Assembly: GCA_951800145.1 (NCBI GenBank)
Contig: CATOJE010000023.1
Coordinates: 1-48,022 of the forward strand
Reading direction: 5' to 3'
Source: an uncultured Lachnospiraceae bacterium
GTDB lineage: Bacteria; Bacillota; Clostridia; Lachnospirales; Lachnospiraceae
DNA: 48,022 nucleotides
Shown: piece by piece, positions 36-11,006 of the stretch
How positions within the stretch are numbered: the first letter of the stretch is position 1
How the letters are laid out: the number at the start of each line of letters is the position of its first letter
The notes under the pieces: model-generated
Told to the model about the DNA's origin: nothing
What the model saw: the letters and a program-made list of their open reading frames with translations, nothing else
The model's database searches: none
Made by a program: the position numbers and the translations under genes

Positions 36-896
36 TTATAATTTTATCCAGCCATCACACCATACATCATGTCCATCCATTCCCTTTATCCATACTTTAG
101 GAGCAACAACAATCTTACCTGGATTATTATTCAGCCATGCCCCCCACCAGCTAAAAGTGCTATTAGAAATAATATTTCCTTTACATAATGTCATTAGATA
201 CATGTCATACCAATCTTGATATGAATTGAAAAGTTTCTCATTACATACTAATATATTTTTTCCACCAAAAAATTTTTTTACCCAGTCCACATCATCAGAA
301 AAAAATATAAGTTTGCTATCTGGATATACTGTACTCATATACTCTATCGCGTTTATATAGTACTCCAATGAGCAAACCTTGTATTGTTCAAGGGATAGAA
401 AATCCCCTCTTCTAATATGAACTCCGATATAATTACATTTTATTTCTTCCCCAAGCTGTCTTAATTTGGGCTCAGAGATATCAAAGGAAAAACAATCCAA
501 AATTTTTTTCTTAATATCAGCAAAGTACTTTTCTGTTTGCCAGTAACCCACAAATACACAATTTTGTGTTTGAAATATATCATTTTCACAACAGAAATAA
601 TTTTCTTCTACATAGAAAAATCTTTCTTTTATATTTTTCTTGAACTGTGTTAATAAGTCCGATTTCTTTTTTATTTCTTTCCACCTTTCATCTATTTCTA
701 TAAATCTATTTTCATCAACTACATTTAAATCAATATTTTTAAATATTTTGTCTAATACAAATGGTCTCGTTCCCGGATGATTGTCATAATACCCCAAACT
801 ACTTCCAACTATCCGTCCTCTGCTTCTTAGCGCTTCAACTAAAGCATATTGAAACATTTGGTTTCCCAATCCGCCCTTAAATCTTACAATATCCAT
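36..896 (-). CDS. Alpha-1,2-fucosyltransferase-like glycosyltransferase (GT11)
   Basis: This 286-residue protein is a family GT11 enzyme, which transfers fucose from GDP-fucose onto a surface glycan in the cytoplasm. The GT11 hallmarks are visible: GGLGNQMFQYA near residue 10 and the donor-binding HIRRGDF motif near residue 160. A later NSTFSWWGAWL motif is also typical. The length is normal for the family and an AAGGA ribosome site stands before the ATG. It is the last gene of a minus-strand group after the WcbI-like gene, with 14 bases between them. The DNA is strongly AT-rich compared with the rest of the window, which fits transfer of a glycan cassette. The family call is firm. The acceptor and the fucose linkage are inferred from the family only. 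Confidence 0.88.
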   Translation of the reverse strand: MDIVRFKGGLGNQMFQYALVEALRSRGRIVGSSLGYYDNHPGTRPFVLDKIFKNIDLNVVDENRFIEIDERWKEIKKKSDLLTQFKKNIKERFFYVEENYFCCENDIFQTQNCVFVGYWQTEKYFADIKKKILDCFSFDISEPKLRQLGEEIKCNYIGVHIRRGDFLSLEQYKVCSLEYYINAIEYMSTVYPDSKLIFFSDDVDWVKKFFGGKNILVCNEKLFNSYQDWYDMYLMTLCKGNIISNSTFSWWGAWLNNNPGKIVVAPKVWIKGMDGHDVWCDGWIKL

Positions 897-910
897 AATA
901 TTCCTTATTT

Positions 911-2110
911 TTATTTTGTATCAAGTAATTTAGTTTCTTTACCAATCATATTCCATAGTACATATTCTTCTATGTATTCACATAAATTCAAAGGATGTTT
1001 ATGCAATGTAAATTCGTATTGGCAACATTTGATATACTCTTGCTTGTATTCCAATTTCAACGCCTTTCGAACACATCCGTAAATAAATATTTCACCTTGA
1101 TCCATTTCATCATCATACATTTTTCCTTTTTTTCTATTAAGTTCAAGAATCTCCATTATTTGTCTGCCCTTTTCATATATCACTTCATTTGAAGGGTGGT
1201 TTGGATCATAAAATAACAGTTTTGTTTTATAATTTTTTTCTATATAATCTGATATTTTTATATCGCATACATTCTCCCGTTTTCGTAACTTCTCGATTTG
1301 CTTTTGAAAATTCCGAATGATCTCTTCTTTACAATAAATCTCTGCATTTTCAATCATATTCTGAATATCATTTATTCCACCACAATTTTTGTTAATATTT
1401 TCATCTTCCCATCTCATTACCCAGCAAACTGCACTTTCTACTTGAGATCTCCTTAATGGATTATTATTTATATCAATTGCATTTTTATTTATATGATAAT
1501 TAAATACAGCTTTATCAAATTCCTTAATCTGAGGAAATAAAAAATTGAATCCATACAAATTAGGAATTCTAATACACTTACAATGACTCAATATTTTTTT
1601 CTCTAATTCTTCTACTCCGGGTACAAAAAAAGAATTATTCTTTTGGATATCCTGTGAGATCAATAGTTTACAAAATCTCAATTCGTTTTCTTTTGGAAAT
1701 CTTTTATTTTCATCCAAATCAGCAACGTAGTATCTTCGAATATAGTATATCCGACTAAACTCAGGTTGATTTAGTAAATAGTTTTCTAGCTTTATCATAT
1801 GACAATTTCCGTATAGAATTGCTAATTTTCTATTGATCACCCCCCCAGGAATGTAATTTTCAAATTCTATCAAACCTAAGTTTTCCAACTGTTTAGCAAT
1901 TTCAAAATAAACATCTGTGGTTTCCGTAGCAACTATAATAAGATGGTTTTTAAGATCTGCTTCTTTTTCTTTCAAACTATAAACACAGATCCCATGAAAG
2001 CACCGATTAGAATTGCGATCAAGAACATATTTAATTTCAAATCTTTTCCTATACAGGCAATAAAATTTTTCACCGGCTAACCCCGCACCATATAGCACAA
2101 TTTCTTCCAT
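911..2110 (-). CDS. WcbI-like polysaccharide biosynthesis protein
   Basis: A 399-residue cytoplasmic protein. The N-terminus reads IVLYGAGLAGEKF, a nucleotide-binding-like loop common in sugar-modifying proteins that carry an extra Rossmann segment. From about residue 130 the text AILYGNCHMIKLENYLL matches the start of the WcbI domain, a family found in capsule gene clusters and proposed to act as an acetyltransferase or lyase on polysaccharide. The later segment FYDPNHPSNEVIYEKG also fits that family. It lies directly upstream of the GT11 gene and probably shares its transcript. Like its neighbour it is AT-rich. The exact reaction is unknown, because WcbI biochemistry is poorly settled, so only a role in surface-glycan decoration is inferred. 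Confidence 0.7.
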   Translation of the reverse strand: MEEIVLYGAGLAGEKFYCLYRKRFEIKYVLDRNSNRCFHGICVYSLKEKEADLKNHLIIVATETTDVYFEIAKQLENLGLIEFENYIPGGVINRKLAILYGNCHMIKLENYLLNQPEFSRIYYIRRYYVADLDENKRFPKENELRFCKLLISQDIQKNNSFFVPGVEELEKKILSHCKCIRIPNLYGFNFLFPQIKEFDKAVFNYHINKNAIDINNNPLRRSQVESAVCWVMRWEDENINKNCGGINDIQNMIENAEIYCKEEIIRNFQKQIEKLRKRENVCDIKISDYIEKNYKTKLLFYDPNHPSNEVIYEKGRQIMEILELNRKKGKMYDDEMDQGEIFIYGCVRKALKLEYKQEYIKCCQYEFTLHKHPLNLCEYIEEYVLWNMIGKETKLLDTK

Positions 2111-2197: not shown

Positions 2198-3313
2198 TTA
2201 AATCGCTTTCCATATTAAAGCGCCCTGACTTTTATTCTCGTTTTTCTCTATCAACGTAGCTGATGCTTCTTTGATATATCTTGTTAAATCTCTCAGCGTA
2301 TATCTCCCTTCTCCAATGCTTTTTTCAGTAAATAAATTCCTATATGCTCTTTGATAACTGCTGGAATTTTTTATATCTTTTACTATTTTTTCTATCGATA
2401 ATTTTATAATATCACCTTTGTCACAAGCTACAATTTCATTTTTAGAAGCATTAAACAAAATGCCATTTCCAATATAAATGTCCGACTGAGCAAATTCATA
2501 AGTTCTTTCACAAGAATTCGGACACCCGTTTTTTAATTTTAAAATCCGATCTTTAAAGCAGCCTTGAAGATGATATAAATCTCCAAATATGTCCTCTTCC
2601 GCCTTAGTTGGAAAATCTATTATAAAGCTTTTCCGTTCATCAGACTCAAGATTAATCAATACAATTTCTGTCTTACTAGAAAATATTCTTCGAAATATAA
2701 CTATATCAGAATATTTGTATACCCCTTTAATTATAATGTCTTCTGAGTTATAAATGATGTTGCATAAATGTTCTTTATTATTCAATTCATATTTGCACAG
2801 ATAATTTTGATTTTTATAAATTAAGGAGAAAAACAATTCTCCTTTTACAATACAGGCGCTATCGGCCCGAATATTTCCACACAAATTTCCATTGCAATTA
2901 CATTCTCTGTCTATGAAAGAGCACCATATGTTATCTTTCGATATTAATTTTCCAGTTATTCCATACCTTCTTATCGTTTCCCCTTTAAATGGGAGAATGA
3001 CAAATTCATCTTGATCGATTAATACATTCGAACAGTAAAATCCTGCTTCATCGGCTTCGATTCCCTGCAATTCTATCGTTCTTATCTGCTGTTCTAAACG
3101 ATCATAGACAAGAAAATGATCTTCTGTGAATGAATATATAAGAATCCCTCGTTCAAGCGGCAGCATTCTTATTTTTTTTCCTGTACACTCCCATGGCAAA
3201 TGGGCTTCTATCTTTGCTTTTCCAGAGGGAGTATGTATTGATATTAAGCTTCTCGATATGCTTTCAATTAAATAGATAAACTTTTCCACTTTCAGCTCTG
3301 TGTTAAAATACAT
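2198..3313 (-). CDS. Conserved-looking protein of unknown function, beta-rich
   Basis: I do not recognise this 371-residue protein. It has no signal peptide and no membrane segment. The sequence is a succession of short beta-strand-like stretches separated by charged loops (for example RGILIYSF, DEFVILPFKG, GELFFSLIY), as in beta-propeller proteins. It carries a cysteine cluster (residues CNCNGNLC) in its middle and a helical C-terminus. A strong ribosome site (AAGGAGAG) precedes the ATG. It lies between the Thr-rich secreted protein and the WcbI-like and fucosyltransferase genes and shares their low G+C content, so a role linked to the surface glycan or secreted protein is possible but not shown. 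Confidence 0.6.
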   Translation of the reverse strand: MYFNTELKVEKFIYLIESISRSLISIHTPSGKAKIEAHLPWECTGKKIRMLPLERGILIYSFTEDHFLVYDRLEQQIRTIELQGIEADEAGFYCSNVLIDQDEFVILPFKGETIRRYGITGKLISKDNIWCSFIDRECNCNGNLCGNIRADSACIVKGELFFSLIYKNQNYLCKYELNNKEHLCNIIYNSEDIIIKGVYKYSDIVIFRRIFSSKTEIVLINLESDERKSFIIDFPTKAEEDIFGDLYHLQGCFKDRILKLKNGCPNSCERTYEFAQSDIYIGNGILFNASKNEIVACDKGDIIKLSIEKIVKDIKNSSSYQRAYRNLFTEKSIGEGRYTLRDLTRYIKEASATLIEKNENKSQGALIWKAI

Positions 3314-3417: not shown

Positions 3418-4497
3418 CTAATTCGTTGCTGCTGTTACTGTAATTGTAACCTCTGTTTTCGCTGTATCATCAAATATTATATTAAGTTTCAAACCATTCG
3501 CAGAATTAACGGCCGTCATATTATTTGTAATGAAAGCGGCATCAATCGTTAACGTATTTCCATTAAGCGAATATCTCACTGCCGGAACATCAGTATTGGC
3601 GTTCAAATTTCTGATTTTGGAAATGCCTTCAGCAGCCTTCTCGCCTGCACCAAGATTAACCGTTATATCTAAAGGGCTACCTGATGTTGCGGTATAAGTA
3701 GTTGTTGTAATACTAGGAGCCGCATCAGCTACAGCATTAGCGTCAAGCAATGTAGCACTGCTATCATCAGCACGAACAGCATAGCTCCAGGTCACAGTTA
3801 CATTAGAACCTGCAAGGCCGGTGGCAGAATAATCTCCGTTCGGATTGCAAGCCCCTGTCATACCGAACTCAAAACTATTCCATGCCGTATCTGGAACACC
3901 GGCTTTCGCTGTATAGCCGTATCCGCCGCCATCAACCGATGTAATCTCGTAATTATCGCTATTACCTTTAAGTCCAACGGTAACCTTGCCTGCTGTCTCT
4001 GTAGTATCAACTGCTACCTCTGTCTGATTTGCTACCTGCAATCCCAAATACAATTTCGCTTGCGTATCAGTAGTCTCAAATGTCTTTGTAGTAGACATTG
4101 CAACATTAGTATTTGCATCTGTTTTAGCAGCAATAGTTACATCAACATCCACTGTTCCCTTATTCATTACTTTTAATTTCGCGCTGTCTTTCGTCCAGGT
4201 ATTCTCCGCTGACTGGAAGTATACATTTGCTCCCGCCTCAAAGCTTTGCCCTGAATATTTTGCACTGTTTGTTTCTGCGATCAAGCCCTCCGGATCCATC
4301 TTATAAGCAAATGTTGTTGTGTTATTGTCTGTAGGCAAGGTTACTGCTACAACATCCTTGTCAACGTGCCCCTCAAATGCTCCTGTTCCTGTTCCGCTTC
4401 CTGAGCCTGTGGTTGTTCCTGTCACCGCATAAGCTGTCATACTCATTCCCAACACCATGGTTGCTGCCAGCGTTCCAGCCAGCGCTTTTCTCATCAT
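3418..4497 (-). CDS. Secreted Thr/Ser-rich surface protein, unknown family
   Basis: A 359-residue exported protein. Residues 1-25 form a clear signal peptide (MMRKALAG, then a hydrophobic core, cleavage after AYA). The mature part begins with a Thr-Gly-Ser linker (TGTTTGSGSGTGTG). It continues with beta-rich domains full of Thr, Ala, Asn and Asp and with only one cysteine in the mature chain. No LPXTG, SLH or lipobox anchor is visible. The composition resembles fibre or coat proteins of the TasA/WxL-like kind, but I see no diagnostic motif. The next upstream gene encodes a small single-pass membrane protein, and glycosyltransferase genes lie on both sides. A glycosylated surface fibre or coat component is my inference. 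Two adjacent ATGs follow AAGGAGGAAGGAAG, and the first was used. Confidence 0.75.
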   Translation of the reverse strand: MMRKALAGTLAATMVLGMSMTAYAVTGTTTGSGSGTGTGAFEGHVDKDVVAVTLPTDNNTTTFAYKMDPEGLIAETNSAKYSGQSFEAGANVYFQSAENTWTKDSAKLKVMNKGTVDVDVTIAAKTDANTNVAMSTTKTFETTDTQAKLYLGLQVANQTEVAVDTTETAGKVTVGLKGNSDNYEITSVDGGGYGYTAKAGVPDTAWNSFEFGMTGACNPNGDYSATGLAGSNVTVTWSYAVRADDSSATLLDANAVADAAPSITTTTYTATSGSPLDITVNLGAGEKAAEGISKIRNLNANTDVPAVRYSLNGNTLTIDAAFITNNMTAVNSANGLKLNIIFDDTAKTEVTITVTAATN

Positions 4498-4566: not shown

Positions 4567-5100
4567 CTACGAATCCACAGTAATGGTAAACGCCACCCGC
4601 AATGTACTGATGGTTTCTTGTTCTTCATCTACCAGATGATACACAATCACACAATCATAGGTACCTTTATCTAATGGTTTATCCAGCTCAATATTTTCCA
4701 GATGGCTTCCTCTGGGAATAACCGGGGACTGGTAAATCGCTTCCTCTTCATTATCCGCCAAAAGAACATCAAAATAGACATCATTTGTATTTTCAATCAG
4801 ATTATCCACCCAGGCATCGTCGGATACGGCGTCTCCTTTACTGAAATGCCAGTCTGTATCCATACTGACGGTATAATAACCCGGCTCGACAAATTCCTGT
4901 GCTTCTTCAACCATATCCGCCGCTACACTTTCCGCATTACTTTCATTGACAATAACATTTCGCTTTTCCTGTGTTTCTTCCTCATCCTGTTTTCCAGAAC
5001 CAAGAAGAAAAATAATAATGCCAAGCAGTGCAATAATCACGATTGCACCTACAATAATAATTATTTTCCCGTTTTTTCCTTCCTTGCCATTCCCGGACAT
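4567..5100 (-). CDS. Small single-pass membrane protein with extracellular beta domain
   Basis: A 177-residue protein with a short basic cytoplasmic N-terminus (MSGNGKEGKNGK), one hydrophobic helix at about residues 13-35 and an acidic linker (KQDEEETQEKR). The rest is an extracytoplasmic domain rich in beta strands, ending in TLRVAFTITVDS. The ATG at 5100 was chosen over a TTG further upstream because GGAGG lies eight bases before it. It sits between the GT-B glycosyltransferase and the secreted Thr-rich protein. It may anchor, present or sense that protein. Small proteins of this type occur in other Lachnospiraceae, but I know of no assigned function. Confidence 0.7.
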   Translation of the reverse strand: MSGNGKEGKNGKIIIIVGAIVIIALLGIIIFLLGSGKQDEEETQEKRNVIVNESNAESVAADMVEEAQEFVEPGYYTVSMDTDWHFSKGDAVSDDAWVDNLIENTNDVYFDVLLADNEEEAIYQSPVIPRGSHLENIELDKPLDKGTYDCVIVYHLVDEEQETISTLRVAFTITVDS

Positions 5101-5122
5101 TATCCAAACCTCCAAACATTTC

Positions 5123-6481
5123 TTATCCTGCTATGATCTCCACATCCTGCAACATCACCGGCATCCCCCTCTCCTGACACAACTGCACCACCGAGCTCCC
5201 ATCCCCATAATAAGCATCACTAATCGCAATAGCCCGGTCCAAATCCGCCGTATCATCATAGATCCCCCACCCCTCTTCCCGGTAGGTATCCACTATCTCC
5301 TTATACTCTTCCCACAGTCTAGTCCTCACCGACTTAATCGTCGCCTCAATAAGCGGATGCGGCCTCCAAAGCAGCGCCACCTCTTCCCGATTCTCCTTAA
5401 AAACGTTCAATGCATCTCGGATCTTCCGGTTCATCTTCTCATTATGGTTCAGCAGCGCCTGGACGCTGGTATTATAAAGAATGATCTTCTTCCAGCTCCC
5501 ATCGGGCTTTTCAATCACCTTCCGCCACTCCTCCGGCACCTCCACATCTTCCTTCCGGGTATTTACCACCTTATCCATCTTGGGTGAACCCAGTCCCAGG
5601 ATCTTCTTTTCCCAGTACTCCCTGGTATCCTCCCCGGACTGCTCCTTCATAAACCTGGTCAGCACCTTGACATATGCTTTTTTCATGTTCTCCGACTGGA
5701 CGATGACTTTATCTGCATTGAAGACACCGGTGGTGATGCAAAAATGCTGCATCCCCTCTAACGCCTCTTCATTCTCCACATCCGGCTCTCCCAGCACGAA
5801 GTAGGGGATATAGACCAGCTCATCGGTGAAGTTTTTTAAGTTTCCCGAATAAAAAAACGGGTGCACGCTGGTGACATAGTTTGAATTGTCGTATGGATTA
5901 TGTATGAAGATCATGTCTGGCCTGCGGTTTTCAAAATCGTATTCGTCATATCTGGTAATGGGAACATCCTGGGGATATAAGTCCCCCTCATAATGCTCCT
6001 CCCGGAAGGTTCCGTCTGGGTTTTTATCGTAGTAGGGAATGGGGATCACATAGGCGTCGGTATCTCCATCCTCCTCTGCCGCCCTCCAGACGCTCTCCAA
6101 AGAATCCCACATGGAGGCCTTGTACGGCAGGAATACCACTTCCTTTCGATCCTCCGGCAGCTGGATTTGTATGCTGTTCTGCAGCTGGGTTAGCTGTTTT
6201 CGGAGCTTTTTTCCTATTTTCCGGCATACTGGTTCATTGGATGTGACCATGCTCATCTGATATATTTTCTCGCAATAGTCTTCCAGATTTTCTACGAGCC
6301 CCCGGTATTGTTCCCCGAAGGCTTCTAAATGCGTGCCGATTTCCATAGCAGCGTCCTGACACTGGATGAATACCTGAGTCAGTGCTTCCGGATCTGCAGG
6401 AAGTGCTTTTACCACGGAGTCATTGGCCTCCATCATGGTGTGGATTAAGTTTAAAATGTCTTTCTTTTTATACCGCTCCAA
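5123..6481 (-). CDS. CDP-glycerol glycerophosphotransferase-like GT-B protein
   Basis: A 452-residue cytoplasmic protein. The first 130 residues are helical. A GT-B fold follows, with VVFLPYKASMWDSLESVW at the N-lobe and the C-lobe signature VALLWRPHPLIEATI followed by SDAYYGDGSSVVQLC. The RPHP and GDxSS elements are those of TagB/TagF-type transferases, which use CDP-activated polyols. Many clostridial members sit beside surface glycoproteins. The start is taken as TTG at 6481, because GGGAGG lies nine bases upstream and the reading frame further upstream (to 6712) has no family-like residues. It is the first gene of the surface block, 22 bases from the membrane protein. The donor and acceptor are unknown. 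Confidence 0.75.
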   Translation of the reverse strand: MERYKKKDILNLIHTMMEANDSVVKALPADPEALTQVFIQCQDAAMEIGTHLEAFGEQYRGLVENLEDYCEKIYQMSMVTSNEPVCRKIGKKLRKQLTQLQNSIQIQLPEDRKEVVFLPYKASMWDSLESVWRAAEEDGDTDAYVIPIPYYDKNPDGTFREEHYEGDLYPQDVPITRYDEYDFENRRPDMIFIHNPYDNSNYVTSVHPFFYSGNLKNFTDELVYIPYFVLGEPDVENEEALEGMQHFCITTGVFNADKVIVQSENMKKAYVKVLTRFMKEQSGEDTREYWEKKILGLGSPKMDKVVNTRKEDVEVPEEWRKVIEKPDGSWKKIILYNTSVQALLNHNEKMNRKIRDALNVFKENREEVALLWRPHPLIEATIKSVRTRLWEEYKEIVDTYREEGWGIYDDTADLDRAIAISDAYYGDGSSVVQLCQERGMPVMLQDVEIIAG

Positions 6482-6739
6482 TCTCACTGCCTCCCTGGGG
6501 ATCCTTTGCAAAACTGTTGTTTTTGTGTTTTGCTTTTTATTATCATACGAATTAGCCGGGCATCTCTGCCTGCAATGGGGGATTTTCAAATCCTTCCTTC
6601 CCTCTTTGCTTCGCTCCGTGCTGGCCACGGTCCTGGCATATCGGAAAGCCGTGATAACACGGCCTGGGTAATGCCGTTGGAATGCTTCTTTGAAATCCCG
6701 GCGCCCCTGCACTGCTGGGCGTGTGATGGTTTCGTCAGC

Positions 6740-7015: not shown

Positions 7016-8395
7016 TCATCCAATGGTTTGTGCTTGTGATTCTTTGTATTTTTTCTCGATATTCCTTGCCCCATTGAGGGCGATGGTGCTCTGGTAGCCG
7101 CAGCTTTCGCATAAAAAAAACTCTGCCAGCCGCTTTCCCTGGGCCCCGCAGTTGGAGCAAATATTCCCGGTTCCCTTGGAATGGATCTCCACAAGCTGGA
7201 TGCCGTTTATCATGCATTTCTGTGCCAGCCGTTTCCTCACGTAGCTCTGAGGGCCCTGGGTGATTTTACGGTTGGCGGCTTTGATATTTTTCCTTGTTTT
7301 GTGAAGGGTTTTATTCAGGGTAACTGGCTTGGGAATGATGATTTTCCCGGGCTTTTCGGTTTCCAGCATTTGGTTTAGCTGGGTGTTGATATAGGTTTCC
7401 AGCCTTGCCTGTTCTCTTTTTTTCTGGCGGCTGTATTTCTGACGGCCCAGGTTATTTGCCTGAAGCTTTTCTGCCTTTTTTTCGTCTCCCAGTGCAAGAC
7501 TTTCCCGGTACTGGGCCCGCACCTTGCTGCGCTCCCGGTTTTTCTCGGTCAGGCGCTCTGTCTTTGCCGTGGACCGCTCTCCCAGCTCTTCCCCATAGAC
7601 ATTTCCGGAGGACAGGGTGCACATGCTCCGGTAGCCCAGGTGAAGATAAATGGTGTTCTGATAGTCTTCATGCTTCCGCCTCTTTATTTCTGAAGGAATG
7701 GCGATCCGGGCGCCGTCTTTTTCAATGCATATCCGCAGCTGTCTTGTGCTTGTTTTATCGTCCTTTAATGGAAGGCTGACCCTTCTTCTGGGGATTCTGG
7801 ATACCAGGCAGAGGGTATGGTCCTTATAGGAATAGCCGCCTGGAGATACGCAGAAGCTGTCTGCCCTGCCTGCCGCAGGCCGGATCCAGTGGCGTCTGGT
7901 AAGCCTTCGGAGAAGGTTATTTAAGCGGCTGGTATCAATGTCCAGGCCTTTTACCTTTTCCGGCATGGGGTAAGCTTCATGGTTCAGGATGGCGGCATAG
8001 ACCTTGTCAAGCTTTAAGACGGTCCTCAGATACATACGGTCATCGCCATTTAAGTTTTCATTGGCTGTAATTAATGTCCGTATTTTATTCTTCAGCATCC
8101 CCCACATGCCCTTGATATCCCGAACTCCATCCCGCACTGCCAGCTCATAATATACGGATGGCAGCTCCAGCTGCTCCCGCAGCCCGCAGTGGCGCATCTC
8201 TGTCATGATATCGTAGATCGAGGCAAGTCTTCCCAGGCTTCCGATCCCGGAATACCGTTCGTAGACGCTGGCCTTTACCTTGGCATAGTCGGAAGCGATC
8301 CCCTTGAGGAATTCCATTGTTTCATCGGGAAGGCTCTCAGTGTGCTGCCAAAGTGTCTTTGTAATCTCTGCTTCCTTTTCCATATCATGCATCAC
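7016..8395 (-). CDS. Nuclease-dead TnpB-family protein (TldR-like)
   Basis: A 459-residue IS605 OrfB/TnpB homologue of full family length. The C-terminal zinc ribbon is intact (C413-x2-C416, C429-x2-C432). The three RuvC acids are gone. The GIDLG position reads YLHLG with His252 for Asp. The second motif reads IIIPKP (Pro355-Lys356) where an IEDL-type Glu belongs. The third motif reads TIALNGARNI with Thr437-Ile-Ala439 instead of DRD. The frame is otherwise open and the family text preserved, which argues for selection on RNA/DNA binding without cutting. No TnpA transposase is nearby. The start is uncertain: GTG 8395, the next ATG, or ATG 8383, each with a weak ribosome site. It ends beside a hairpin-rich stretch (candidate guide RNA) and the promoter side of a surface/glycan operon. 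It may be an RNA-guided repressor, or alternatively a decayed transposon gene. Confidence 0.85.
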   Translation of the reverse strand: MMHDMEKEAEITKTLWQHTESLPDETMEFLKGIASDYAKVKASVYERYSGIGSLGRLASIYDIMTEMRHCGLREQLELPSVYYELAVRDGVRDIKGMWGMLKNKIRTLITANENLNGDDRMYLRTVLKLDKVYAAILNHEAYPMPEKVKGLDIDTSRLNNLLRRLTRRHWIRPAAGRADSFCVSPGGYSYKDHTLCLVSRIPRRRVSLPLKDDKTSTRQLRICIEKDGARIAIPSEIKRRKHEDYQNTIYLHLGYRSMCTLSSGNVYGEELGERSTAKTERLTEKNRERSKVRAQYRESLALGDEKKAEKLQANNLGRQKYSRQKKREQARLETYINTQLNQMLETEKPGKIIIPKPVTLNKTLHKTRKNIKAANRKITQGPQSYVRKRLAQKCMINGIQLVEIHSKGTGNICSNCGAQGKRLAEFFLCESCGYQSTIALNGARNIEKKYKESQAQTIG

Positions 8396-8560: not shown

Positions 8561-8585
8561 TTCGCAGATTAAGCCCTTCTGCGAA
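8561..8585. repeat. Left 25-bp inverted repeat flanking the recombinase gene
   Basis: The site reads TTCGCAG, an 11-base spacer ATTAAGCCCTT, then CTGCGAA. Its inverted copy is at 10026-10050 with 23 of 25 positions equal. Short inverted arms around an asymmetric spacer are the usual layout of a tyrosine-recombinase core site. Confidence 0.75.
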
Positions 8586-8620
8586 AATCTCTTAAAATGC
8601 CTGATAATTGCAGCGTTTTT

Positions 8621-9772
8621 TCACGCCGCCTGACCACAAATCTGACCATAAAAATCCAGGAGCATTTCTATCTGCTTCCGCTTGGAATCCATGGTGGGGT
8701 GAACATAGCGGTTCAGCGTAAGCTTCACATCTGCATGTCCCAGAATCTCGCTCAATGCCTTTACGTCCATATTGTTTTCCACACAGTTTGTGGCAAAGGT
8801 ATGGCGCAGGATATGGAAATTGCGGCTGTCGATCTTTGCCTCTCTTAAAAACTTTTGGAAACGATACTGCATAGTCCTGGGATCCAGCGGCTTTTCCCTG
8901 CCAAATATATAGGGCTGTGACTCCTTAAGCTGCATGAGAAGACAAAGCATCTCCGCTGTAATGGGTATGCTTCTCTTGGAGCTCTCACTTTTCGGCTCTG
9001 TCTCTAAAAGGACCGTTTTTGTGCTTCCCTCCGCCACGGCGATTCTCTGTACAGTTCGATTCACTGTTATCGTCATACTCTTTATATCCAGATCCTCCCA
9101 CTGAAGGGCACATAACTCTCCAAGTCGCAGCCCGGTACACAGACACAGCAAAACTGCAATTTTGGACCTGTCTGTCACTTGATAAATATGGGAAAGAAGC
9201 CTTGCCTGTTCTGCCTTAGTCAGGGTTTTTACATTTCCCTTCTTAAGTTTTACAGAAGGCCTCTCCAGCAAAGGCACCCCCGCGGAATAGTTCCTGTTTG
9301 CAAAGCTTAATATCTGGTTGGCTACGCATCCAATGCTTTTCTTCAGGCTTTCCGACAGGTTTTCTTCGGATAAGTGGTCAAAAATCTTTGTACTCAGCTG
9401 AAAAAAGCCAGTGCCGGAAATCTGGCACTGGCCTGCCGCTTTAGCAAGGTGCGTCTGATAAACCGTACGGTATTTCACATAGGTGGAATACTTCCTCCTC
9501 TCTGCCACCTCCCCCAGCCATTCTTCTGCTGCCTGTGCAAATAAGAGCGTAATATGACTGTCAGCTGCCTTCAGCGCCTCCTTTGCATCTTTTACTTCCT
9601 TTTCACAGGTAAGCTCAAATTTGGCTTTAGAAAGCTTTTCCTTTACTGCCTCGTAGGACCGGCTGTAAACAGAGCGATAAATCGATCTGCCCTTATTTTC
9701 GTCAAATACCTTATAGCGCCCTTCCCATCTTCCATCGCTTCTCTTTCGTATATTCTCTCCATGCCTTCCCAT
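8621..9772 (-). CDS. Tyrosine recombinase / integrase
   Basis: A 383-residue site-specific recombinase of the Tn916/phage integrase type. The N-terminal 60 residues are a basic AP2-like arm-binding domain (RWEGRYKVFDENKGR). A helical core-binding domain spans about 70-170 and the catalytic domain runs from 180. All catalytic residues are present: Arg216 in TGLRLGEL, a Lys near 261, His320 and Arg323 in HILRHT, His346 in LGHAD, and nucleophile Tyr356 in LNRYVHP. The start has AAGGAG eight bases upstream. No excisionase, phage or conjugation gene is near. Instead the gene lies between 25-bp inverted repeats and is itself overlapped at its 3' end by a 17-bp direct repeat. It probably acts on those repeats, inverting its own segment, though it could be the remnant of a lost element. 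Confidence 0.93.
   Translation of the reverse strand: MGRHGENIRKRSDGRWEGRYKVFDENKGRSIYRSVYSRSYEAVKEKLSKAKFELTCEKEVKDAKEALKAADSHITLLFAQAAEEWLGEVAERRKYSTYVKYRTVYQTHLAKAAGQCQISGTGFFQLSTKIFDHLSEENLSESLKKSIGCVANQILSFANRNYSAGVPLLERPSVKLKKGNVKTLTKAEQARLLSHIYQVTDRSKIAVLLCLCTGLRLGELCALQWEDLDIKSMTITVNRTVQRIAVAEGSTKTVLLETEPKSESSKRSIPITAEMLCLLMQLKESQPYIFGREKPLDPRTMQYRFQKFLREAKIDSRNFHILRHTFATNCVENNMDVKALSEILGHADVKLTLNRYVHPTMDSKRKQIEMLLDFYGQICGQAA
8631..8647. repeat. Direct repeat copy 1 (possible recombinase arm site)
   Basis: TGACCACAAATCTGACC overlaps the last codons of the recombinase gene. A copy differing at one base lies in the same orientation at 9819-9835, just upstream of the gene. Tyrosine integrases with AP2-like N-termini bind short direct arm repeats, so a binding role is possible. 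Confidence 0.5.
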
Positions 9773-9948: not shown

Positions 9949-9977
9949 TTGCAAATTTCTCTTAAATCGTGTAAAAT
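9949..9977 (+). promoter_or_regulatory. Outward-facing promoter inside the putative invertible segment
   Basis: TTGCAA and TAAAAT are separated by exactly 17 bases. A second -10-like TATAAT is at 9986-9991. The promoter reads rightward across the inverted repeat at 10026-10050 into the terminator at 10057. If the segment between the repeats inverted, it would lie at about 8634-8662 and read leftward into the dead TnpB gene. The rest of 9773-10026 is AT-rich and holds no gene. Confidence 0.55.
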
Positions 9978-10025
9978 AACGCCGATATAATTTATGTGGA
10001 AATGAAAAAGTTTGATATTTTTTAT

Positions 10026-10050
10026 TTCGCAGAAGGGCTTAATCTATGAA
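10026..10050. repeat. Right 25-bp inverted repeat flanking the recombinase gene
   Basis: TTCGCAGAAGGGCTTAATCT, followed by ATGAA, is the inverted copy of 8561-8585. The spacer is fully conserved and the two mismatches are in the outer right arm. Confidence 0.75.
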
Positions 10051-10260: not shown

Positions 10261-11006
10261 TTACCTGCCAAGCGGCTCACCATCTTCCAGTACCTGGCAC
10301 TTTAGTTTCTGATATTGCTCTTTTGTCAACTCCCCATCGCGAAGCATTTTCTCAAGAAGCGCCTCCTGTCCTTTTTTCCAGCCTTCAGCTTTTCCTTCAG
10401 CTCTCCCTTCAGCTTTTCCCTCAGCTTTTCCTTCAATTTTTCCTTCAGCTTTTCCTTCAATTTTTCCTTCAGCTCTCCCCTTTGCTATCCCTTCCTCCCG
10501 CACATAATTCTCCCTGGCAATCTCATCTCTGCGCTTTTTCTGATATCCCTCATACAATACCCGTATCGGATTGCTCAGGCTCATCCTCCTCAGCTCGCGT
10601 ATCGCTTCCTGGATTCCTATATTTTCTGTCTTTATCATCTCCAAATCCTCCTCTGTCTTCGCATTAAAAAATCGGATCCAATCATCTACCGCTCCCTTTC
10701 CGGACAGCTGCTTTTTTAACTCCATTACATGATGCCAGGGGTCTAAAGGTCTAAAATCCGATGTAAGCTTGCTTGCAAGAGGATTTTTGAACTTGAGACC
10801 CGCCAAAAACATGAAAAAGCAGCCCGATAGGGCGGATTTTGAATGTTTTTAGGATTGCGGGAGCATGAAATGCGGAGCAATCCGCGGCATCAAATGGATC
10901 AAAATACCTTTTGACCCCAACATCATTGCATGGGTTTCCAGCACATCGGTGAATTCGTTTCCGTGCTGATCCTTCAGACGGTAAATGCTGTGGTACGCCA
11001 GGCAAT
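10261..11006 (-). pseudogene. Rpn / PD-(D/E)XK nuclease-family remnant
   Basis: The C-terminal part (10261 to about 10797) encodes the typical tail of Rpn-type proteins, from LKFKNPLASK and DPWHHVMELKK through VLYEGYQKKRRDE to a run of repeated EGKAEGK/EGRAEGK units. Upstream, in another frame, about 10918-11006 encodes IYRLKDQHGNEFTDVLETH, which fits the family's core strand before that tail. About 110 bases of unrelated sequence (10802-10912) separate the pieces, and the N-terminal catalytic third is missing. The gene is therefore broken and not a nuclease. The lysine-glutamate-alanine repeats are variable in the family. Rpn proteins promote recombination or phage defence, but this copy is presumed inactive. 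Confidence 0.7.

Follow-up and report, generated by a model that had tools for sequence, protein, structure and literature searches.

A conserved lineage of nuclease-dead TnpB proteins beside invertons and surface-glycan operons in Lachnospiraceae: candidate RNA-guided repressors

A gene for a nuclease-dead homologue of TnpB (dTnpB) lies between an invertible DNA segment and a surface-glycan operon in an uncultured Lachnospiraceae bacterium; the DNA analyzed is a stretch of 48,022 nucleotides, referred to here as the window. Comparison with its relatives places dTnpB in a conserved chromosomal lineage that has lost all RuvC acids and evolves under purifying selection, and a conserved structured RNA lies directly downstream of the gene. 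The protein, the RNA and the parts of the switch are well supported, and the system is real, conserved and probably functional. On balance we think it likely that dTnpB, in the manner of TldR and under a phase switch, acts as an RNA-guided repressor of gly, the glycerophosphotransferase-like genes of such operons, and that the genes repressed are probably those of rival surface operons.

A TnpB lineage without RuvC acids

7016..8395, minus strand: dTnpB (nuclease-dead TnpB), 459 aa, GTG start, first gene behind the inverton

The sole Pfam match of the predicted protein is PF07282, the TnpB/Cas12f zinc-ribbon family (40.3 bits, cut-off 26.3); the NCBIfam model guided_TnpB scores 43 bits, under its cut-off of 100. 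Further matches are to PADLOC Cas12f (best E 8.9e-13), to PHROG transposases and to 26 sequences of solved structures at E <=1 (best 9.3e-10), the last mostly over the C-terminal half. The homology to TnpB spans the RuvC/zinc-ribbon half, and the RuvC catalytic acids of active TnpB are missing from it.

A preliminary description of this DNA had claimed that all three RuvC acids are lost while the zinc ribbon and the full length are kept. Both points are borne out. A profile-profile alignment (hhalign probability 99.7, E 9.5e-26) sets the dTnpB family against six TnpB-like references, half of which carry the annotation RNA-guided endonuclease TnpB. In it His252 stands opposite the Asp of VGLDLG, which is present in 6/6 references, and Pro355 opposite the Glu of VLED, likewise present in 6/6, with Lys356 as the next residue. 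Ala439 stands opposite the last Asp, that of NADWVASVN, a residue found in 4/6 references, two being themselves without it. Nor does the alignment shift these acids to other parts of the protein. The zinc ribbon C413/C416/C429/C432 is intact and the frame of 459 codons is open along its whole length.

Relatives were collected by a pattern search of one genome per GTDB species, which gave 213 matches, 184 of them encoding a relative. The best 80 of these 184, the window protein and seven loci from the same or related genomes make up an alignment of 88 proteins from 87 distinct loci (L050 and L015 are the identical locus); the proteins of L034 and L035 stop 4-6 residues before the end of their matches. 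The residues found are A40 S31 H12 Y4 F1 at the first RuvC position, P45 V20 T14 A6 I2 G1 at the second and K49 R21 A14 S2 P1 G1 at the third. Asp or Glu stands at none of the three positions in any of the 88, a count that covers relatives sharing the N-terminus of the family: because the patterns were derived from the family's own N-terminal half, active relatives with another N-terminus were beyond reach. The four zinc-ribbon cysteines and the Asn are kept in 88/88. Active TnpB (IS200/IS605, IS607) and Cas12f share with dTnpB the RuvC/zinc-ribbon homology, the zinc ribbon itself and a structured RNA downstream, but they possess the RuvC acids that 0/88 of the dTnpB family retain.

Pairwise dN/dS lies between 0.045 and 0.134 in the 12 dTnpB pairs tried, six of which have dS >1.2, near saturation, and indicates purifying selection. 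The preliminary description had asked for orthologues in other Lachnospiraceae and for dN/dS, and had named active close relatives beside a decaying copy as the outcome that would count against it. What was found instead is a set of relatives without active residues, dead in 88/88, with their neighbors mostly kept (gly or surface genes, and the inverton) and with no frameshift in the window copy.

The loss of the catalytic residues, together with the existence of broken copies (one in three frames, one with a single TAA and the truncated L178), could point to a functionless transposon remnant in decay. That 0/88 proteins keep the acids and 88/88 keep the cysteines, with dN/dS at 0.05-0.13, argues that dTnpB is not decaying, and the structure of the RNA and the neighbors are conserved as well; we give the remnant reading hardly any credence, and for the whole family it is very unlikely. 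Some copies do decay, since those at G065 C19:52190-53486, broken into three frames, and at G068 C1:1537766-1539082, with one internal TAA, are no longer intact. At G063 C23:288423-289880 (L182) the match is split into two parts of a single open frame of 526 aa, apparently an intact dTnpB with an insertion of about 40 residues.

On contig C42 the genome of the window carries a second dTnpB, just as dead and 75% identical to the first; a recombinase precedes it, and gly, membrane and surface genes follow. Distribution of the family is patchy: it occurs in 6/61 genomes (own and relatives) and in 5/150 drawn from the window's own family, and by record title most relatives belong to Lachnospiraceae or to other Clostridia, a few being from rumen bins. 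Each of ten genomes holds between one and seven copies, Sporofaciens musculi (G061) having seven. Among 50,697 phage records the L016 protein met just distant TnpB-like matches in 24 records, none covering 80%; one relative was found in viral contigs. The window neighbors scanned include no IS200/605 or IS607 transposase.

A structured RNA adjoins dTnpB

6551..6677, minus strand: guide-RNA-like scaffold core, from covariance model, covariation and motif conservation; 5' elements may extend to about 6850
6539..6550, minus strand: putative guide TCGTATGATAAT, preceded by CTAAT, the last bases of the scaffold

The RNA block sits between dTnpB and the next gene. A fuzzy motif for it, allowing <=4 substitutions, is present behind dTnpB in 85/88 rows (84 with <=2), against a background of 79 matches in 335,649 bases at <=4 substitutions. 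The misses are L048, L078 and L082, of which L078 offers merely 25 nt of sequence. For 30 clade-2 sequences RNAalifold predicts 26 pairs, and 19 of these show compensatory changes on both sides. The clade-2 covariance model, built without the window's clade and without any of the 29 sources that were searched with it, recovers the window RNA at 6542-6677(-) as the sole match in the window (25.3 bits, E 3.3e-4) and matches 27/29 sources, missing L048 and L082. No Rfam family matches the RNA at E <=1 in the stretches searched; such matches as Rfam gave were other ones or lay below threshold. Its layout resembles that of TnpB omega-RNA and of Cas12f tracrRNA.

Several loci depart from the common arrangement. 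In the variable loop of the RNA, L171 (= L094; GGAAGTGCGCGAATGCGCACGCAGGTCATCAACCTGCGGTTGGTGACAAATATAA), L175 and L093 have a hairpin module inserted as a tandem array, and L181 has a related insertion. In L030 a single dTnpB is followed by two copies of the guide RNA (1528-1663 and 2596-2739) and two gly stretches, arranged in tandem. In L036, L047, L057, L059, L081 and L084 a shared or closely related motif, AGCAATGAGCCGTGCAG, follows the guide and precedes the first operon gene; it is perhaps an antitermination or leader element.

The RNA tail appears to match conserved codons of gly

5123..6487, minus strand: gly, glycerophosphotransferase-like, first gene of the surface operon (PF04464 22.0 bits, cut-off 22.1)
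4567..5115, minus strand: small membrane-anchored protein, TTG start as called, ATG at 5100
3418..4497, minus strand: surface protein whose start resembles, by eye, a signal peptide
911..2110, minus strand: WcbI-like polysaccharide biosynthesis gene (PF18588, 84 bits)
36..896, minus strand: family 11 glycosyltransferase (PF01531, 95.5 bits)

The start of gly, a GTG behind GGGAGGC, was chosen by eye. Relatives of the small membrane-anchored protein and of the surface protein adjoin dTnpB in several loci, and a gly or a membrane or surface gene lies <=2.6 kb downstream of dTnpB in 62/72. The operon also encodes, at 2198-3313(-), a 371-aa protein for which neither Pfam nor NCBIfam gives a match at E 0.01.

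The last bases of the scaffold are YAAT, or AAAT in a few loci of clade 2. The tail that comes next is conserved inside each of two clades and differs between them. In clade 1 the tail is mostly [TC]CNTATGAT (17 loci, the window included); in clade 2, the larger, it is RTRYCTTATT in most of 66 loci. Read as codons of gly, the clade-2 tail corresponds to IPYF and the clade-1 tail to PYDN after HN; the clade-1 tail was inspected after the clade-2 match had been noticed and is thus a semi-independent replicate. In order to evaluate these matches, the tails were expressed as position weights, the columns were permuted and the mean best match over 49 gly genes was recorded. The observed value was reached by 0/2000 permutations for clade 1 and by 1/2000 for clade 2. 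The best clade-1 site falls at HN-PYD in 36/49 gly genes, and the best clade-2 site at IPYF in 18/49 and at IPYY in 22/49. With dTnpB genes, recombinases and two flanks as controls, 15-266/300 permutations were at or above the observed value, the lowest figure (15/300, borderline) being that of one flank with clade 1. A further control, at other offsets, is uninformative, with lower information content and relative scores above that of the tail. The guide-target step is thus supported statistically: the 3' tail appears to match conserved gly codons, HN-PYDN in the window's clade and IPYF and IPYY in the larger one.

Variation within the tails is mostly C/T or A/G and would therefore be tolerable by G-U pairing. 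Where the codons are degenerate the guides mostly have U or G, and through G-U pairing a single guide may cover a gene family. Candidate target sites are preceded by CATAAT in clade 1 and mostly by TAT or CCN in clade 2, and no TAM common to the sites of both clades fits. The clade-2 target motif TATRTNCCTTATT, searched exactly in ten genomes, occurred 35 times versus 34 for the reversed pattern, and 4 of 30 occurrences inspected were within gly genes. In a top-40 list over all loci, 12-16 matches fell in gly, which makes up 2.2% of positions; such short motifs hence match many other places.

A tail that guides to a single exact site was considered and set aside: 16-nt tails at <=2 mismatches led to the RNA genes and to scattered matches, 9 versus 4 for a reversed control, and in another run the control matches were scattered too. 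Cis matches of 13 nt within loci showed nothing systematic. Also unlikely is a leader peptide encoded by ATGCCTTATT, for the start codon is missing there in 19/66 clade-2 guides. Loci L172-L175, L180 and L092 carry a second copy of the tail motif (e.g., AGTATATGTGCCTTATTT) about 40-135 nt past the RNA tail, and L180 also a third; the extra copies match gly codons over more bases than the first and are possibly additional guides or gly remnants.

The position of the RNA, between dTnpB and the operon, also suits a regulator that needs no DNA target: dTnpB would bind the RNA in the 5' leader of the operon and act in cis on transcription or translation, with the tail as part of the scaffold. In several loci the tail ends near an apparent ribosome-binding site, and it is kept within each clade, its zero-mismatch copies in the genomes searched being the RNA genes themselves. 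Such a regulator would leave unexplained why the match to gly is significant in both clades and not in control genes, and why the tail varies mostly by C/T and A/G; moreover, the layout is that of TnpB and TldR guide RNAs. We consider it quite unlikely. The reading of dTnpB as a TldR-like repressor, raised in the preliminary description, gains support from the conserved dead lineage, and we hold it more firmly than was done there because a conserved structured RNA with a gly-matching tail adjoins dTnpB.

Own or sister gly as the target

5885..5896, minus strand: candidate target site in the gly of the window, CATAAT followed by CCATACGACAAT; 8/12 exact, the other four G-U

If gly is the target, guides may act on the gene of their own operon or on sisters elsewhere in the genome. 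A search for gly in 22 genomes gave one to five matches each, pieces included, with a single gly in G008, S. musculi (G061) and G077. Own gly and best sister were compared over 12 nt for 23 of 27 guides (L022, L026, L027 and L042 have no own gly or no usable site) from 17 of the 22 genomes (G061, G063, G008, G077 and G081 left out, as were gly pieces without a locus). The own gene was the worse match for 14 guides, the better for 3 and tied for 6. Measured against a null free of the best-of-several effect, this bias has p 0.06 at 12 nt, 0.10 at 10 nt and 0.09 at 14 nt. Same-genome sisters were matched no better than gly genes of other genomes (p 0.31-0.54); in a smaller run of ten genomes the two tests gave 0.06 and 0.22.

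The matching part of the guides is short (10-14 nt), and the best single pairs were picked from many. They include the L052 guide with the sister gly L231 (14/14 exact), the L055 guide with the L247/L256 gly (12 exact plus 2 G-U of 14) and the L088 guide with the L263 gly (12 exact plus 1 G-U of 14). The L013 guide pairs with the window gly with 0 mismatches and 3 G-U in 11, versus 3 mismatches with its own. In two genomes with one gly the fit is poor: S. musculi, with one gly at E 1e-30, has guides at 1-2 mismatches plus 1-4 G-U in 11 nt, and G008 two guides with 1 mismatch plus 2-4 G-U pairs. Four guides (L066, L100, L095 and L060) are poor at IPYF, with a penalty of 2.35-3.35 over 12 nt, and have 1 mismatch at best at IPYY.

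These data bear on a feedback in cis, by which dTnpB and its RNA would bind the gly of their own operon and tune or limit it after a switch to ON, leaving sister loci alone. The window gly begins about 50 nt behind the guide and pairs with it over 12 nt if the four G-U pairs are counted, and the avoidance of the own locus is not significant. Against this stand the 14 guides for which own gly is worse than the best sister, as opposed to 3 for which it is better, the five guides (L013, L052, L055, L057, L088) that match a sister far better than their own gly, and the 12/72 loci where the 2.6 kb downstream hold a membrane or surface gene and lack gly. We regard feedback in cis as unlikely, though it deserves to be kept in view. 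Since the match to the family is significant and the own/sister and same-genome tests are not, we are fairly confident of gly as the target family, and we propose silencing of sister gly genes as the likelier direction, the latter as a trend.

An inverton precedes dTnpB

8561..8586: proximal inverted-repeat arm of the inverton, TTCGCAGATTAAGCCCTTCTGCGAAA, pairs with the distal arm
8621..9772, minus strand: tyrosine recombinase (Phage_integrase; Pfam/NCBIfam), inside the invertible segment 8561-10050
9949..9977, plus strand: promoter-like site TTGCAA-17-TAAAAT, inside the cassette, points away from dTnpB
10025..10050: distal inverted-repeat arm, TTTCGCAGAAGGGCTTAATCTATGAA; its 26 nt are 92% complementary to the proximal arm

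Inverted repeats (score >=14) are found just 5' of dTnpB in 53/79 rows versus 0/68 control regions. Two types are prominent among them: cassettes some 1.4 kb long that have TTCGCAGA-type arms and hold a tyrosine recombinase, as in the window, and short segments, near 100 bp, whose arms are of the CAAAAAGTGTACTTTTTG type. A recombinase lies upstream in 22/73 distinct loci with >=1.5 kb of upstream sequence, 16 oriented along dTnpB and 6 opposite. The promoter beside the recombinase start in these cassettes points outward, with a perfect TTGACA-17-TATAAT in 6/24 (L060, L066, L089, L096, L083 and L020), and the opposite orientation should consequently be the ON state. Promoter-like sites in the window cassette are no more frequent than by chance (2 found, 4.6 expected); the one at 9949..9977 recurs at the same place and in the same direction in L013, L028 and L021. 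Because this site is directed away from dTnpB, we take the window locus, and with it the sister on C42, to be in the OFF state.

Among the 45 rows with short inverted repeats, a promoter-like site faces dTnpB in 5, faces away in 19 (17 distinct loci, L094/L171 and L063/L179 being the same) and is seen in neither direction in 21; several of these promoter matches are weak, e.g., L044, L090, L065 and L072. In S. musculi the promoter is directed away from dTnpB in six of the seven intact loci. The sole promoter facing the operon there (by eye) is that of L178, whose dTnpB is a fragment with a match to query 18-60. Repeats thus flank the promoter, and both orientations are seen between loci and genomes, the pattern of a phase-variable promoter. 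Just past the window's inverton, at 10730-10892(+), is a Clostridiales-1 RNA (RF01699 in Rfam, 142 bits, E 1.2e-33); it overlaps a PD-(D/E)XK transposase-like ORF at 10261-10812 (PF12784, under its cut-off).

The frequent proximity of an inverton to dTnpB (the 53/79 rows above) might suggest that dTnpB serves the recombinase as an accessory factor, e.g., by biasing or blocking inversion. The recombinase itself, however, is adjacent in the 22/73 loci only, and a 13-nt match between the post-scaffold region and DNA 5' of the own dTnpB is confined to L056, where it begins 145 nt past the scaffold motif. We consider a role of this kind highly improbable.

Discussion

Our preferred reading, a domesticated TnpB that acts as a TldR-like repressor under the control of a switch, would operate as follows. 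The recombinase would turn the promoter toward dTnpB, so that dTnpB, the guide RNA and the surface operon are expressed together. The complex of dTnpB and RNA would then bind gly of other surface operons; the guide, identical to the coding strand, would pair with the template strand, and G-U pairing at degenerate codon positions may let one guide cover the gly family. Bound in this way, the complex may block transcription of gly, so that one surface coat is made and its rivals are damped. Silencing is the step that we infer from the parts.

Salmonella Hin/FljB-FljA is a familiar case in which inversion switches a surface antigen and, along with it, the gene that silences the alternative antigen. 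The proposed dTnpB system would be its RNA-guided counterpart, FljA not being RNA-guided.

The closest parallel is provided by the csrA-TldRs, as described in the main text of PMC13418256 (Nat Microbiol 2026), where the reading is backed by RIP-seq and ChIP-seq. In Oscillibacter these loci are chromosomal and have fliC ORFs as predicted cross-targets; in Flavonifractor they have upstream hin genes and inversions of about 120 bp (PMC13418256). Both systems comprise a chromosomal dead TnpB in gut Clostridia with a guide RNA (putative in the dTnpB system) downstream, several loci per genome, predicted cross-targeting inside ORFs, and a recombinase gene upstream with promoter inversion (PMC13418256). 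They differ in their parts: the serine invertase hin, csrA and fliC in the one case; a tyrosine recombinase or short invertons, surface-glycan operons and a putative gly target in the other (PMC13418256). They differ also in the kind of evidence, RIP-seq and ChIP-seq for the csrA-TldRs (PMC13418256) and computation for the dTnpB system. The window neighbors scanned, which are glycan and surface genes, include neither csrA nor a flagellin gene. The prophage fliC-TldR of Enterobacter likewise sets a dead TnpB and a guide RNA beside an alternative surface antigen, but is phage-borne and concerns flagellin, whereas dTnpB is chromosomal and concerns surface operons (PMC13418256).

The preliminary description had thought a Lachnospiraceae dead TnpB beside a recombinase switch to be new. 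The lineage is real and conserved, yet the novelty is smaller than supposed, because csrA-TldRs with hin genes and inversions of about 120 bp are already in print (PMC13418256). The main text of that paper contains none of the terms Lachnospiraceae, glycosyl, capsul or polysaccharide. A survey of the open-access literature on TnpB and TldR gave nothing recognizable as the dTnpB family. What appears new here is a TldR-like system tied to invertons, whether with a tyrosine recombinase or short, and to surface-glycan operons.

To our knowledge it is largely an open question by what means a bacterium that has many phase-variable coats keeps from making several of them simultaneously. If the proposal is correct, each switch would contain its own RNA-guided silencer, a direct and reprogrammable answer, and the reach of TldRs would extend from flagellin to surface glycans, to further gut species and to tyrosine-recombinase switches. 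It would also make available a guide RNA in its native form, together with candidate target genes and with switch states open to experiment now. More tentatively, we suggest that RNA-guided mutual exclusion of phase-variable surface glycans may be widespread in gut Lachnospiraceae, with a dead TnpB made by each inverton-controlled locus, several such loci per genome, and short guides directed at conserved amino-acid motifs of a gene family that, through G-U pairing, could silence many rival alleles.
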